A stretch of DNA of 64,000 nt from Candidatus Thiodiazotropha sp. (ex Myrtea sp. 'scaly one' KF741663). Lineage in GTDB: Bacteria > Pseudomonadota > Gammaproteobacteria > Chromatiales > Chromatiaceae. This document shows, in pieces, positions 18,419-46,677 of this stretch. Position numbers and translations under genes: made by a program. Position 1 is the stretch's first letter; each line of letters starts with the position of its first letter. The stretch is from assembly GCA_025655555.1 (NCBI GenBank), contig JAHXIQ010000002.1, positions 62,001-126,000 of the forward strand, given 5' to 3'. Below the pieces are notes generated by a model. That model saw only the letters and a program-made list of their open reading frames with translations. It was not told the origin of the DNA and did no database searches.

Positions 18419-18442
18419 ATCCCCCCACTAAGGGGGATTTTA
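18419..18442 (+). terminator. Rho-independent terminator after purH
   Basis: ATCCCCC, a short loop, then GGGGGAT followed by TTT. It lies 24 bp past the purH stop and abuts the repeat element beginning at 18441. It suggests that purD has its own promoter. Confidence 0.6.
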
Positions 18443-18521
18443 TAACGCAGTGCTCGCTAAGAATCGCAGAGAGCGCAAAGGGTTTTCATTAGTTACGTTT
18501 CTTTGCGAGCTTTGCGTTATA
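18441..18521. repeat. 81-bp inverted-repeat element (GCGCAAAG family), solo copy
   Basis: The element begins TATAACGC and ends GCGTTATA. Its two arms (ATAACGCAGTGCTCGCTAAG and, reversed, ATAACGCAAAGCTCGCAAAG) resemble each other. They also resemble the terminal repeats flanking the GxxExxY gene at 45515-45980. It has no coding capacity and looks like an internally deleted, MITE-like derivative of that element. Confidence 0.75.
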
Positions 18522-18588: not shown

Positions 18589-19878
18589 ATGAATATACTC
18601 GTCATTGGCGCGGGCGGCCGCGAACACGCCCTGGCCTGGAAGGCCGCACAATCCCCTCTGGCCGATAAGGTCTATGTTGCACCAGGCAATGCCGGTACCG
18701 CATTGGAGGCACGATTGGAAAATGTACAGATCGATGTCAATGCGATTGATGAGCTGATCGATTTCGCCAAAACCAATGATATCGGCCTCACCATCGTGGG
18801 ACCTGAGGCGCCGCTGGTCATAGGCATTGTCGACGCTTTTACAGCAGCCGGTCTACGCTGCTTTGGACCCGGTCGAGAAGCAGCACAGCTGGAAGGCTCC
18901 AAGTCCTTTACCAAGGATTTCCTCGCCCGCCATCATATTCCTACCGCCGACTACCAGACCTTTACCGATACGGATTCTGCCCTCGCCTATCTGCAGGAGA
19001 CCGGCGCACCCATCGTGATCAAGGCCGATGGTCTGGCCGCAGGCAAAGGGGTCATCGTCGCCATGGATCTGGAGACAGCTGAACAGACCGTCAGAGACAT
19101 GCTGGCCGGCAATGCCTTCGGTGAAGCCGGTCACCAAGTGGTCATCGAGGAGTATCTGGAAGGAGAAGAGGCAAGCTTCATCGTCATGGCAGATGGCGAG
19201 CATGTCCTACCCATGGCTACCAGCCAGGACCACAAACGGATGGGAGACGGCGATACCGGTCTCAACACCGGTGGTATGGGTGCATACTCTCCCGCGCCTG
19301 TGGTGACAGACGAGATTCACCAGCGCATCATGGAGCAAGTGATCCTGCCCACAGTCAAGGGCATGGCTGATGAGGGCCGCCCCTATACCGGCTTTCTCTA
19401 TGCCGGCCTCATGATCACCGCAGATGGCACACCGAAAGTCATCGAATACAACTGCCGTTTCGGTGATCCCGAGACCCAACCGATCATGCTACGCATGCGT
19501 TCTGATCTGGTGGCTCACTGCCTTGCTGCGCTGGAACAGCGACTCGACAGAGAGACCACCGAATGGGACCCCCGAGCTTCAGTAGGCGTTGTTCTGGCCG
19601 CAGGCGGCTATCCAGGCCCCTATCAAAAAGATCTGCCAATCAGCGGCCTGCCAGAGCCGGAGAGTGATGATGCCAAGGTATTTCATGCCGGCACAGCGCT
19701 GCTCAACGACCAAATCGTCACTGCCGGTGGTCGTGTTCTCTGCGCAACAGCACTGGGCGACACGGTGACCCAGGCCCAGCAGCGCGCTTACGAGTTGACC
19801 CGTTCCATCCATTGGGAAAAGGTTTATTTCCGTTCCGATATTGCATATCGCGCTATTGCCAGGGAACAGCAGCACTGA
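18589..19878 (+). CDS. purD: Phosphoribosylamine-glycine ligase (GAR synthetase)
   Basis: An ATP-grasp enzyme of purine synthesis that joins glycine to phosphoribosylamine. It shows the N-terminal MNILVIGAGGREHALAWK, the ATP loop IKADGLAAGKGVIVA, and the metal-site segment NCRFGDPETQ. The 429-residue length is standard. It follows purH, separated by a terminator and repeat. The VanZ-like gene begins at its stop codon. Confidence 0.99.
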   Translation: MNILVIGAGGREHALAWKAAQSPLADKVYVAPGNAGTALEARLENVQIDVNAIDELIDFAKTNDIGLTIVGPEAPLVIGIVDAFTAAGLRCFGPGREAAQLEGSKSFTKDFLARHHIPTADYQTFTDTDSALAYLQETGAPIVIKADGLAAGKGVIVAMDLETAEQTVRDMLAGNAFGEAGHQVVIEEYLEGEEASFIVMADGEHVLPMATSQDHKRMGDGDTGLNTGGMGAYSPAPVVTDEIHQRIMEQVILPTVKGMADEGRPYTGFLYAGLMITADGTPKVIEYNCRFGDPETQPIMLRMRSDLVAHCLAALEQRLDRETTEWDPRASVGVVLAAGGYPGPYQKDLPISGLPEPESDDAKVFHAGTALLNDQIVTAGGRVLCATALGDTVTQAQQRAYELTRSIHWEKVYFRSDIAYRAIAREQQH

Positions 19879-44825: not shown

Positions 44826-45503
44826 TCAAGCCGCTTCTTCCAGCAGGCTGCGGATCTCGGTGAGTGTATCGATCACTGCATCAGGATTGTAGTTGCGGAT
44901 ATCCTCACCATGGTTGTATCCGTAACTCATGCAGACAATCTGAAAACCGGCAGCACGGGCAGCCTTCACATCGCTCTGTGAGTCTCCGATCATCAGGGCA
45001 TCAGCAGGGACCACGCCCAACTGTTCAGCCGCATGCAGCAGCGGCAACGGATCGGGTTTTTTCTTTGGCAGGGTATCGCCGGCGATGACGATCTCGAAGT
45101 CATCATGCACGCCCAGATCCTTTAACAGGGGAAGCGTGAACTGTGCCGCTTTATTGGTCACGCAGCCCAGTCGGTAGCCCTTCAGCTTGAGGTAGTCGAG
45201 TCCATCGCGGATACCGGGATAGAGTGCAGAACGCTGGCTGGTATTCACTGCATAGAGGTCTAGAAAGATCGGATAAGCACGCTCAAAGTCAGCTTCATCC
45301 GGCTCGCCATTGAGTTGCCCGATCAAGGCTCGGCGCACCAAACGCTCCACCCCATTACCGACCCAATCCCGCACTTTCGTTTCGCCGTGGGCGGGACGTC
45401 CTAACTGCTTCATCATCTCATCTACGCAATAGGCCAGGTCGGGCACACTATCCACCAGGGTACCGTCGACATCGATGAGGATCATTTTAGGATTCTTAAT
45501 CAT
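44826..45503 (-). CDS. gph: Phosphoglycolate phosphatase
   Basis: A HAD hydrolase removing phosphate from 2-phosphoglycolate, a by-product of DNA repair and, in autotrophs, of RuBisCO oxygenation. The motifs are ILIDVDGTLVDSVPDLA, GCVTNKAAQF and LMIGDSQSDVKAARAAG. The start is probably ATG 45503; a longer frame begins at a TTG inside the adjacent repeat element. It follows rpe, as in E. coli, but the GxxExxY element separates the two genes by nearly 500 bp. Confidence 0.93.
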   Translation of the reverse strand: MIKNPKMILIDVDGTLVDSVPDLAYCVDEMMKQLGRPAHGETKVRDWVGNGVERLVRRALIGQLNGEPDEADFERAYPIFLDLYAVNTSQRSALYPGIRDGLDYLKLKGYRLGCVTNKAAQFTLPLLKDLGVHDDFEIVIAGDTLPKKKPDPLPLLHAAEQLGVVPADALMIGDSQSDVKAARAAGFQIVCMSYGYNHGEDIRNYNPDAVIDTLTEIRSLLEEAA

Positions 45504-45514
45504 TTCTTTATTTG

Positions 45515-45980
45515 TATAACGCAAAGATCGCTAAGAAGCGCAAAGGACGCAATGTATTCAGAGATTATTTACAACTCTATGCATTCCCTGCTTTAACAAC
45601 TTAGCACTGAAATTAAAAATTAGCCCTAGTTTCAGGCCGCTCCACTTTAAGTAGGTCAACAACTGTGCCCTATGTACAGGCAAAATATTATCCACTGTCT
45701 TCAGCTCTACAATGAGCTGATGATTAATAAGGAAATCCGCACGATATGCCGATTTCACATTCAGCCCTTTATATTCTACAGCGATTACCGCTTCTGTTTG
45801 AAATGGCAATCCGATTAAACCCAACTCACGAGCTAAACACGCCTGGTATGCCGACTCCAACAAACCAGGACCGAGCGTTCGGTGAACTTCGAGAGCAGCC
45901 CCAATTACACTTTGTGCAGTAGCGTTTTCATCCATGAAATCCTTTGCATCCTTTGCGCTTCTTAGCGTTCTTTGCGTTAT
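45515..45980. mobile_element. 466-bp terminal-inverted-repeat element carrying a GxxExxY gene
   Basis: Left end TATAACGCAAAGATCGCTAA (45515-45534) and right end, reversed, ATAACGCAAAGAACGCTAAG are near-identical inverted repeats. The similarity extends about 37 bp each side (continuing AAGCGCAAAGGA). The gene inside fills the space from repeat to repeat, and the right repeat supplies its Shine-Dalgarno-like AAAGGA. The element interrupts the rpe-gph pair. No clear target-site duplication is seen. The 81-bp repeat at 18441 shares its ends. Confidence 0.75.
45558..45935 (-). CDS. GxxExxY protein (PD-(D/E)XK nuclease-like)
   Basis: A 125-residue protein of the GxxExxY family. The name-giving motif is G24-L-L-E27-S-A-Y30. 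A PD-(D/E)XK-type core follows, with D67 in RADFLINHQ and E77-L-K79 in LIVELK. The family resembles small nucleases but has no demonstrated function that I know of. Here the gene is bounded by inverted repeats and uses AAAGGA in the right repeat as its ribosome site. That points to a selfish or mobile nucleic-acid element rather than host metabolism; this is inference. Confidence 0.88.
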   Translation of the reverse strand: MDENATAQSVIGAALEVHRTLGPGLLESAYQACLARELGLIGLPFQTEAVIAVEYKGLNVKSAYRADFLINHQLIVELKTVDNILPVHRAQLLTYLKWSGLKLGLIFNFSAKLLKQGMHRVVNNL

Positions 45981-45984
45981 GAGG

Positions 45985-46677
45985 TCAAACTTTAGCCAGT
46001 TCCGCTTTCATCTTGCCGACGATGGTGTCATAGACGTTGGCATCATTCGCTTCCGGGAAACCGAAGATACCGGAACCCGCGACGAAAGTATCAGCACCTG
46101 CGGCCTTGATCTCGGCGATGTTGTCGACTTTGACGCCTCCATCGATCTCCAGACGGATATCCAGTCCGGAGTCATCGATCAACTTGCGGCATGCACGCAG
46201 TTTGTCCATGGTGGCGGGAATAAAGCTCTGCCCACCAAAACCGGGGTTGACCGACATCAGCAGAATCATATCGACTTTATCGAGCACGTAGTCAAGATGT
46301 GACAGCGGGGTTGCGGGGTTGAACACCAGACCCGACTTACAGCCCTCATTGCGAATCAGCTGCAGGCTGCGATCGACATGCTCGGACGCCTCAGGATGGA
46401 AGGTGATATAAGTAGCACCCGCCTTGGCAAAATCAGGAATAATACGGTCCACCGGCTTAACCATCATGTGGACATCAATATCTGCAGTCACGCCATGCTT
46501 GCGCAGCGCCTCACAGACCAGTGGGCCAATGGTCAGATTAGGTACATAGTGATTGTCCATCACGTCAAAATGGACGATCTCCGCACCCGAGGCGAGTACG
46601 TTATCAACCTCTTCACCAAGTTTGGCAAAATCTGCCGACAGGATGGAGGGAGCGATCTTATCGGATTGACGAGCCAT
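45985..46677 (-). CDS. rpe: Ribulose-phosphate 3-epimerase
   Basis: Interconverts ribulose-5-phosphate and xylulose-5-phosphate in the pentose-phosphate and Calvin cycles. The 230-residue TIM barrel shows [34 protein letters not shown], and [18 protein letters not shown]. The catalytic Asp and metal His residues are present. TAGGAGAC precedes the ATG. It normally leads gph; the inserted element lies just after its stop codon. Confidence 0.98.

Follow-up and report, generated by a model that had tools for sequence, protein, structure and literature searches.

Introduction

Enzymes of the PD-(D/E)XK fold act mostly on DNA, and homing endonucleases such as I-Ssp6803I are found among them. The GxxExxY proteins form a widespread family for which we know of no assigned role. 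Short arrays of units such as CACAGAG and CGCAAAG are likewise unexplained dispersed repeats. In the portion of the open-licence literature covered by text searches, no paper on GxxExxY arrays was found: PDDEXK_3 returned none, the repeat words none that was relevant, and one mention of GxxExxY was incidental. The closest described system is that of REPINs and RAYTs. In the available excerpts of PMC8049555 and PMC3116915, it comprises a vertically inherited low-copy gene that is rare on plasmids and dispersed inverted repeat pairs that are more numerous where the gene is present.

Here, a GxxExxY gene of a Candidatus Thiodiazotropha genome (G000) is described together with the inverted arrays that frame it. 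The window, i.e. the whole stretch of DNA analysed, comprises 64,000 nucleotides. Linking GxxExxY with 7-nt arrays offers a testable function for both.

The unit between rpe and gph

The following features were assigned in the window, arms of the window's own type being called type A.

18442..18520, no strand: gene-free mini, an inverted type A arm pair of 79 bp between purH and purD
44826 to about 45503, minus strand: gph, downstream neighbour, ATG start judged from relatives
45516..45558, no strand: left arm, an inverted array of CGCAAAG-like units with outer end (T)ATAACGC, adjoining gph
45558..45935, minus strand: GxxExxY gene, 125 aa, PD-(D/E)XK nuclease family by profile and conserved residues
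45938..45980, no strand: right arm, an inverted copy of the left arm (91%)
45985..46677, minus strand: rpe, upstream neighbour

The unit measures 465 bp and interrupts rpe-gph; the listed TTG start of gph falls within an arm. Its two arms, each of 43 nt and 91% complementary, are separated by 379 nt, and the GxxExxY gene fills the space between them. The stop codon of the gene touches the left arm, and the right arm, which ends AAAGGATTTC-ATG, carries a Shine-Dalgarno-like AAAGGA at its inner end. The description given in the original prediction was thus borne out by the positions: near-identical inverted repeats around a 125-residue GxxExxY gene, AAAGGA within the right repeat, a split rpe-gph pair and, near 18441, a shorter relative with the same ends, which is the gene-free pair listed above.

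The score of the unit (33) was reached by none of 2000 same-geometry placements in the window, the top placement scoring 32 (placements may overlap the unit itself) and the next 19.5. Allowing up to 3 mismatches, the end motif was matched 4 times in the window, against a mean of 0.03 in 100 shuffles, and 15 times in the whole of G000, against once for the reversed pattern. A single GxxExxY gene was found in this genome. A chance inverted repeat was rejected on the basis of the placements in the window, the shuffles and the cross-phylum controls described below. Rfam gave no match up to E 0.1 across 45300-46200.

The GxxExxY protein

The protein encoded in the window matched TIGR04256 (E 1.9e-40; 137.8 bits, cut-off 35) and PF13366 (PDDEXK_3; E 2.4e-39; 134.8 bits, cut-off 22). 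The PD-(D/E)XK residues are intact, with E27, D67, E77 and K79 conserved, and the motif E...D...ExK...Q lies on a predicted fold that was identified as PD-(D/E)XK with confidence. By these residues on the predicted fold, the protein is confidently placed in the PD-(D/E)XK nuclease family. The PDB yielded no sequence match up to E 1. The main open reading frame of the unit is GxxExxY itself, which is no known transposase; shorter frames lie on the opposite strand.

Two other assignments were rejected. As a defence gene, the best PADLOC match reached only E 0.028. For a phage origin, the best PHROGs match was at E 0.16, no match was found in GenBank phages (50,697 records) at E 1e-5 and none was confirmed in IMG/VR (one alignment). 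At the same threshold, GxxExxY was present in 8 of 72,556 plasmid records.

Arrays of a 7-nt unit across phyla

The arms are built from a tandemly repeated 7-nt unit (CRCNRAG and variants), the copies of which are separated by short spacers and read inwards from each end. CACAGAG, CACGGAG, CGCAGAG, CGCAAAG, CGCGGAG, CGCCAAG and CACGAAG are the commonest units. The motif was learned on a cross-phylum set of 78 loci (those of 80 with enough flank) and subsequently tested on a held-out set of 30 loci, which are 30 of the best matches and belong almost all to one family (f51). Arms above the score threshold were found at 50 of the 78 GxxExxY loci, from many phyla, as compared with 2 of 254 controls shifted within these loci; at the other 28 a strong arm pair was absent. 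With the same threshold, 19 of the 30 held-out loci had arms, as did none of 104 controls. At least three units were present on at least one side in 63/78 loci (controls 7/254) and in 27/30 held-out loci (controls 5/104), and on both sides in 38/78 loci (controls 1/254; wrong-strand reading 7/78). GxxExxY genes elsewhere therefore do not consistently lack such repeats; a consistent lack is what the original prediction would have taken as speaking against it.

The letters of the unit differ among loci and match between the two arms of one locus: in the 38 loci with at least three units on both sides, r ranged from 0.75 to 0.96, as compared with permutation maxima of 0.48-0.68. Left-right agreement was r 0.94 for G at position 2 and 0.96 for position 5, with permutation maxima of 0.53 and 0.56-0.68, respectively.

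Among relatives, 41 GxxExxY matches were obtained, of which 30, including that of G000, were taken as loci. The flanking inverted repeats beat all 100 shuffles at 26 of these 30 (two of them being pieces of one gene). Six further copies in genome G006, scored without shuffles, also have arms, of 29 nt (scores 24-26.5). In a comparison of 30 distant genomes, which are not independent of each other and for which the arm type was taken from one locus per genome, the type of array tracked the arm type of the gene for CACGAAG (p 0.01, or 0.04 when G113 was counted) and did not do so for CGCAGAG (p 0.56).

A second family showed the same architecture with a different unit and a different protein. 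Genes matching TIGR02436, a four-helix bundle, also lie inside inverted arrays at L090 (G000:C7:28461-28790) and at 15 other loci, many of the units being 7-nt ones (GAGTTTT, AATTTTG, AGTTATC). Out of 26 matches, 3 were not given and 2 were skipped; 16 of the 21 loci beat all 100 shuffles, some narrowly. Three tandem TIGR02436 matches, 375 nt apart and with equal scores, occur at G006:C26:41614-42690.

Gene-free arm pairs in the genus

Three arm types, A, B and C, were followed in 22 genomes of the genus, G000 included. Type A gave 147 ends in 12 of the 22 genomes and type B 1127 ends in 21, the B pattern also catching type C ends; the reversed controls gave 0 for both. When 86 of the 147 type A ends were tested for orientation, neighbours within 600 bp faced inwards in 31 cases, the other orders accounting for 1 and 0. 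Dispersed gene-free ends number up to 140 per genome in congeners.

Where the B gene is intact (seven genomes), B ends number 31-140, versus 0, 1, 2, 2, 13, 16 and 107 in the seven in which neither a B nor a C gene was found (p 0.008). The other 8 of the 22 genomes were kept outside this test: G010, with a Glu-to-Ala exchange, has 91 ends; G015, G002 and G016, with a broken B gene, have 37, 19 and 21; and those of type C have 58, 78, 78 and 29. Joining the three broken-B genomes to the group without a gene gave p 0.003; the genomes compared are not independent of each other. The exception is G012, which has 107 type B ends although neither a GxxExxY gene nor a match to the carA query was found there. 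The lineage to which the window's gene belongs (G000, G018 and G014) is the only one in which A ends outnumber B ends; since these three genomes are sisters, the excess counts as one event. Arm pairs also persist in genomes where the GxxExxY gene is broken or was not found. The type B gene of G010 (L029) is the one in which Ala replaces the Glu of the ExK motif, and the B ends persist there.

For 15 of the 24 listed B mini sites, the best-matching arm was 93% identical (median), and 102 of 105 pairs of interiors from the same sites were no better than the shuffled maximum. Orthologous minis have common interiors. Target-site duplications were about as frequent as expected for the A, B and C minis (16, 24 and 22 entries); this comparison covered the minis, with orthologous copies removed only in part and a C set that overlaps the B set. 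No common flank was seen among the entries of any type, and the type B flanks had no longer ends in common.

Carriage by MITEs

In G006, 102-bp type A minis (L308-L319) have been amplified within a MITE with TAGTGTCCGTCC ends, and their interiors are common to the copies. A second MITE of this genome, with ISL3-like ends, carries the GxxExxY unit itself (L282, L303-L307). It occurs in six copies, one intact and five internally deleted, of which one is without the left end. Judged by eye, its 8-bp duplications are exact in two copies and one base off in two.

Old traces of the TAGTGTCCGTCC MITE were observed in G000 (L005 and L008). The mini at C2:455117 looks like an old copy, its flanks matching the MITE ends on both sides (12/500 and 0/500 shuffles as good). 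At C5:121764 a match was found on one side (4/500), and this mini is probably an old copy as well. The purH-purD mini showed a weak one-flank likeness (21/500 shuffles as good in the window, 1/500 in G014). The flanks of the unit in the window and most other type A flanks did not match the TAGTGTCCGTCC ends, and only 1 of 26 type B flanks did, at 7/500; type B minis thus show no carrier of this kind in their flanking sequence. From the matches at type A minis it follows that part of these moved as MITEs, so that type A movement need not involve GxxExxY.

These data bear on the reading that the gene is a passenger, i.e. that host recombination and unrelated transposases acting on MITE carriers spread and homogenise the repeats, with GxxExxY sitting between them and leaving the arms alone. 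One MITE in G006 holds the whole unit, another holds type A minis and has left traces in G000, and arm pairs outlast a broken or unfound gene, all of which fits. However, such a passenger gives no reason to expect the same class of array around GxxExxY genes of many phyla, and type B minis are without carrier ends. We consider this reading unlikely, though it has a real chance of being correct.

Inheritance and shared sites

Ka/Ks of the B gene was mostly 0.05-0.11. The GxxExxY gene is under purifying selection, has been broken repeatedly, including in several close relatives, and descends vertically. Just one GxxExxY match was found in each of 12 of the 22 genus genomes, and units occupy different sites in different genomes.

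At rpe-gph, 30 junctions were compared, that of G000 included. Five carry the unit (G000, G018, G014, G005 and G023), G019 holds a 3′ remnant, two junctions were unreadable and the rest are without the unit, which is thus not fixed in all relatives. The copy of G023, a genome of another genus, has different arms, and in G018 and G014 the gene is broken. In a three-gene tree, the closest relatives of G000 are two genomes, both with the unit at the same site.

At carA-carB, the junction was seen in 21 of the 22 genomes and, by eye, each carries a B or C unit or a remnant. The B units of G019 and G021 adjoin a leftover type C arm. The B protein of G021 is 63% identical to the C protein of G009 and 79% to the B protein of G007; the DNA around carA-carB is 86% identical to that of G009 and 80.5% to that of G007. 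Because the protein is nearer to G007 while the surrounding DNA is nearer to G009, we read this as one unit having replaced another at the site. In several relatives, rpe-gph and carA-carB also hold a nested palindromic repeat of another kind, GTAGGGTGCGGC...GCCGCACCCTAC.

Between purH (stop codon 18394-18396) and purD (ATG at 18589), the mini of the window had a single-stranded DNA hairpin z of -4.7. The two genes overlap in 14 of the 22 genomes (13 by script, G001 by eye) and a type A mini lies between them in six, while G019 has 9 nt and G013 113 nt of other sequence. The insertions include about 15-70 nt of extra DNA beyond the arms. Carriers of the mini fall into three clades of the three-gene tree, which would fit either two gains with losses or three gains, as the right flanks of G005 and G021/G015 look alike. 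The mini of G014 differs from that of G000 and G018 at the same place and with the same right flank. Minis at shared sites also differ between G007 and both G016 and G002, between G016 and G002, and between G005 and G019. An intergenic site shared by G019 and G005 holds a type A mini in one species, the other having a mini of the AATTTTG type there. The synteny comparison of G004, G020 and G009 revealed no element indel, so that recent movement was rejected for the type C lineage.

The mobile or selfish unit proposed in the original prediction has to be modified in view of these results. The unit is real, recurs across phyla and is not fixed at rpe-gph, and gene-free pairs vary between relatives at shared sites. 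The copy in the window is not freely jumping: it holds the sole GxxExxY gene found in its genome and lies at the same site in the two closest relatives, with the gene broken there. Moreover, the minis lack target-site duplications, and some type A minis are borne by ordinary MITEs.

A host-adopted system for DNA binding or genome organisation, in which the arrays serve as regulatory or chromosome-structure sites and mobility belongs to the past, would agree with purifying selection, long inheritance at the same site and arrays that are kept while interiors differ. Gene breakage in close relatives, conserved nuclease residues and minis that differ at shared sites argue against it and make it improbable. 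A conventional transposon, in which GxxExxY would itself mobilise the 465-bp unit through the terminal repeats, as originally suggested, is very doubtful. The unit is compact, has terminal inverted arms and occupies differing sites in differing genomes, but these points are opposed by minis without target-site duplication, the single match in more than half of the genus genomes, same-site inheritance at carA-carB and rpe-gph, scarcity in plasmid and absence from phage records, and a PD-(D/E)XK enzyme, which is not a known transposase core. Least probable of all is an RNA-level element comparable to rRNA intervening sequences, its arms pairing as a long stem in operon transcripts that the nuclease or a host RNase would process: the unit does lie between co-directional genes at rpe-gph and carA-carB, and TIGR02436, a family known from 23S intervening sequences, is a second small-protein family framed by inverted arrays, but both neighbours (taken as the longest open reading frames) are co-directional at only 28 of 54 loci, Rfam gave no match and PD-(D/E)XK enzymes mostly act on DNA. 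Placement in operons only was rejected as weak on the same count.

Proposed mechanism

A two-part, REPIN/RAYT-like system built on a PD-(D/E)XK nuclease is the best explanation of the data, and we hold it with a confidence somewhat short of even. One part would be a low-copy GxxExxY gene inside inverted arrays of a 7-nt unit, the other the set of inverted arm pairs that are built of this unit and hold no gene. The GxxExxY protein would bind the array, the units of which lie approximately one helical turn apart, and would cut at or between the arms, possibly while the near-palindrome forms an extruded structure or is single-stranded. Repair by arm homology from another copy would then overwrite the broken arms, or turn a gene-free pair into a gene-bearing one. 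An action of the protein on its own ends, as raised in the original prediction, is plausible.

We infer cutting and copying from three observations: arms agree both inside one locus and throughout a genome, unlike the interiors of type B pairs; replacement occurs at fixed sites; and duplications are missing. Cutting followed by arm-templated repair would explain the absence of target-site duplications, the matched arms, an arm sequence that drifts as a set within a lineage, replacement at the same junctions and the combination of alike arms with unlike interiors. The association of gene and arrays, the matched arms, the dispersed inward-facing pairs, the variation among relatives at shared sites, purifying selection and repeated decay are direct observations; binding, cutting of the arms and copying by repair are what the sequences suggest. 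Spread of pairs to new sites lies outside the cut-and-repair scheme, and MITE carriage is one route for it.

In its boldest form, which is put forward tentatively, GxxExxY nucleases would represent a new class of genomic parasite that cuts arms, forces their arm-templated repair and in this way spreads its own 7-nt arrays. Intergenic arrays of the CACAGAG and CGCAAAG type in many phyla would be the footprint of a PD-(D/E)XK gene-conversion drive, in which arm sequence and enzyme coevolve.

Comparison with known systems

A classical insertion sequence with target-site duplication was rejected, as the minis have no such duplication and the main open reading frame is not a known transposase. Cas4/Hjc-type nucleases resemble GxxExxY in predicted fold and in the motif E...D...ExK...Q; however, no PDB sequence was matched up to E 1, and the gene in the window is flanked by rpe and gph instead of CRISPR genes. 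MITEs carry the whole unit or type A minis in G006 and have left traces in G000, with the arms lying inside the MITE, whereas type B minis and the unit of the window are without MITE ends. Common interiors, as expected of MITEs, are seen in the type A copies of G006 and not in type B minis.

PD-(D/E)XK homing endonucleases are likewise small single-gene nucleases subject to gain and decay, and their break-and-copy spread is what is proposed here for GxxExxY. Unlike them, GxxExxY lies outside introns and inteins and is framed by inverted arrays that are also found without the gene.

The likeness to REPIN/RAYT systems, as far as these are covered by the excerpts cited above, comprises a gene that is low in copy number and passed on vertically, inverted pairs that are dispersed, higher repeat numbers in genomes with the gene and rarity on plasmids. 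These dispersed pairs are made up of the end repeats of the gene itself, and some of the type A ones are MITE-borne. In contrast to REPIN/RAYT, arrays of a 7-nt unit take the place of short palindromes at the ends, type B interiors vary between sites, the gene is often broken, and the enzyme belongs to PDDEXK_3, whereas RAYT is a tyrosine (HUH) transposase. Since the enzyme is unrelated, the GxxExxY system is not a member of REPIN/RAYT; the comparison suggests a second origin of the RAYT/REPIN arrangement, this time around an unrelated nuclease.
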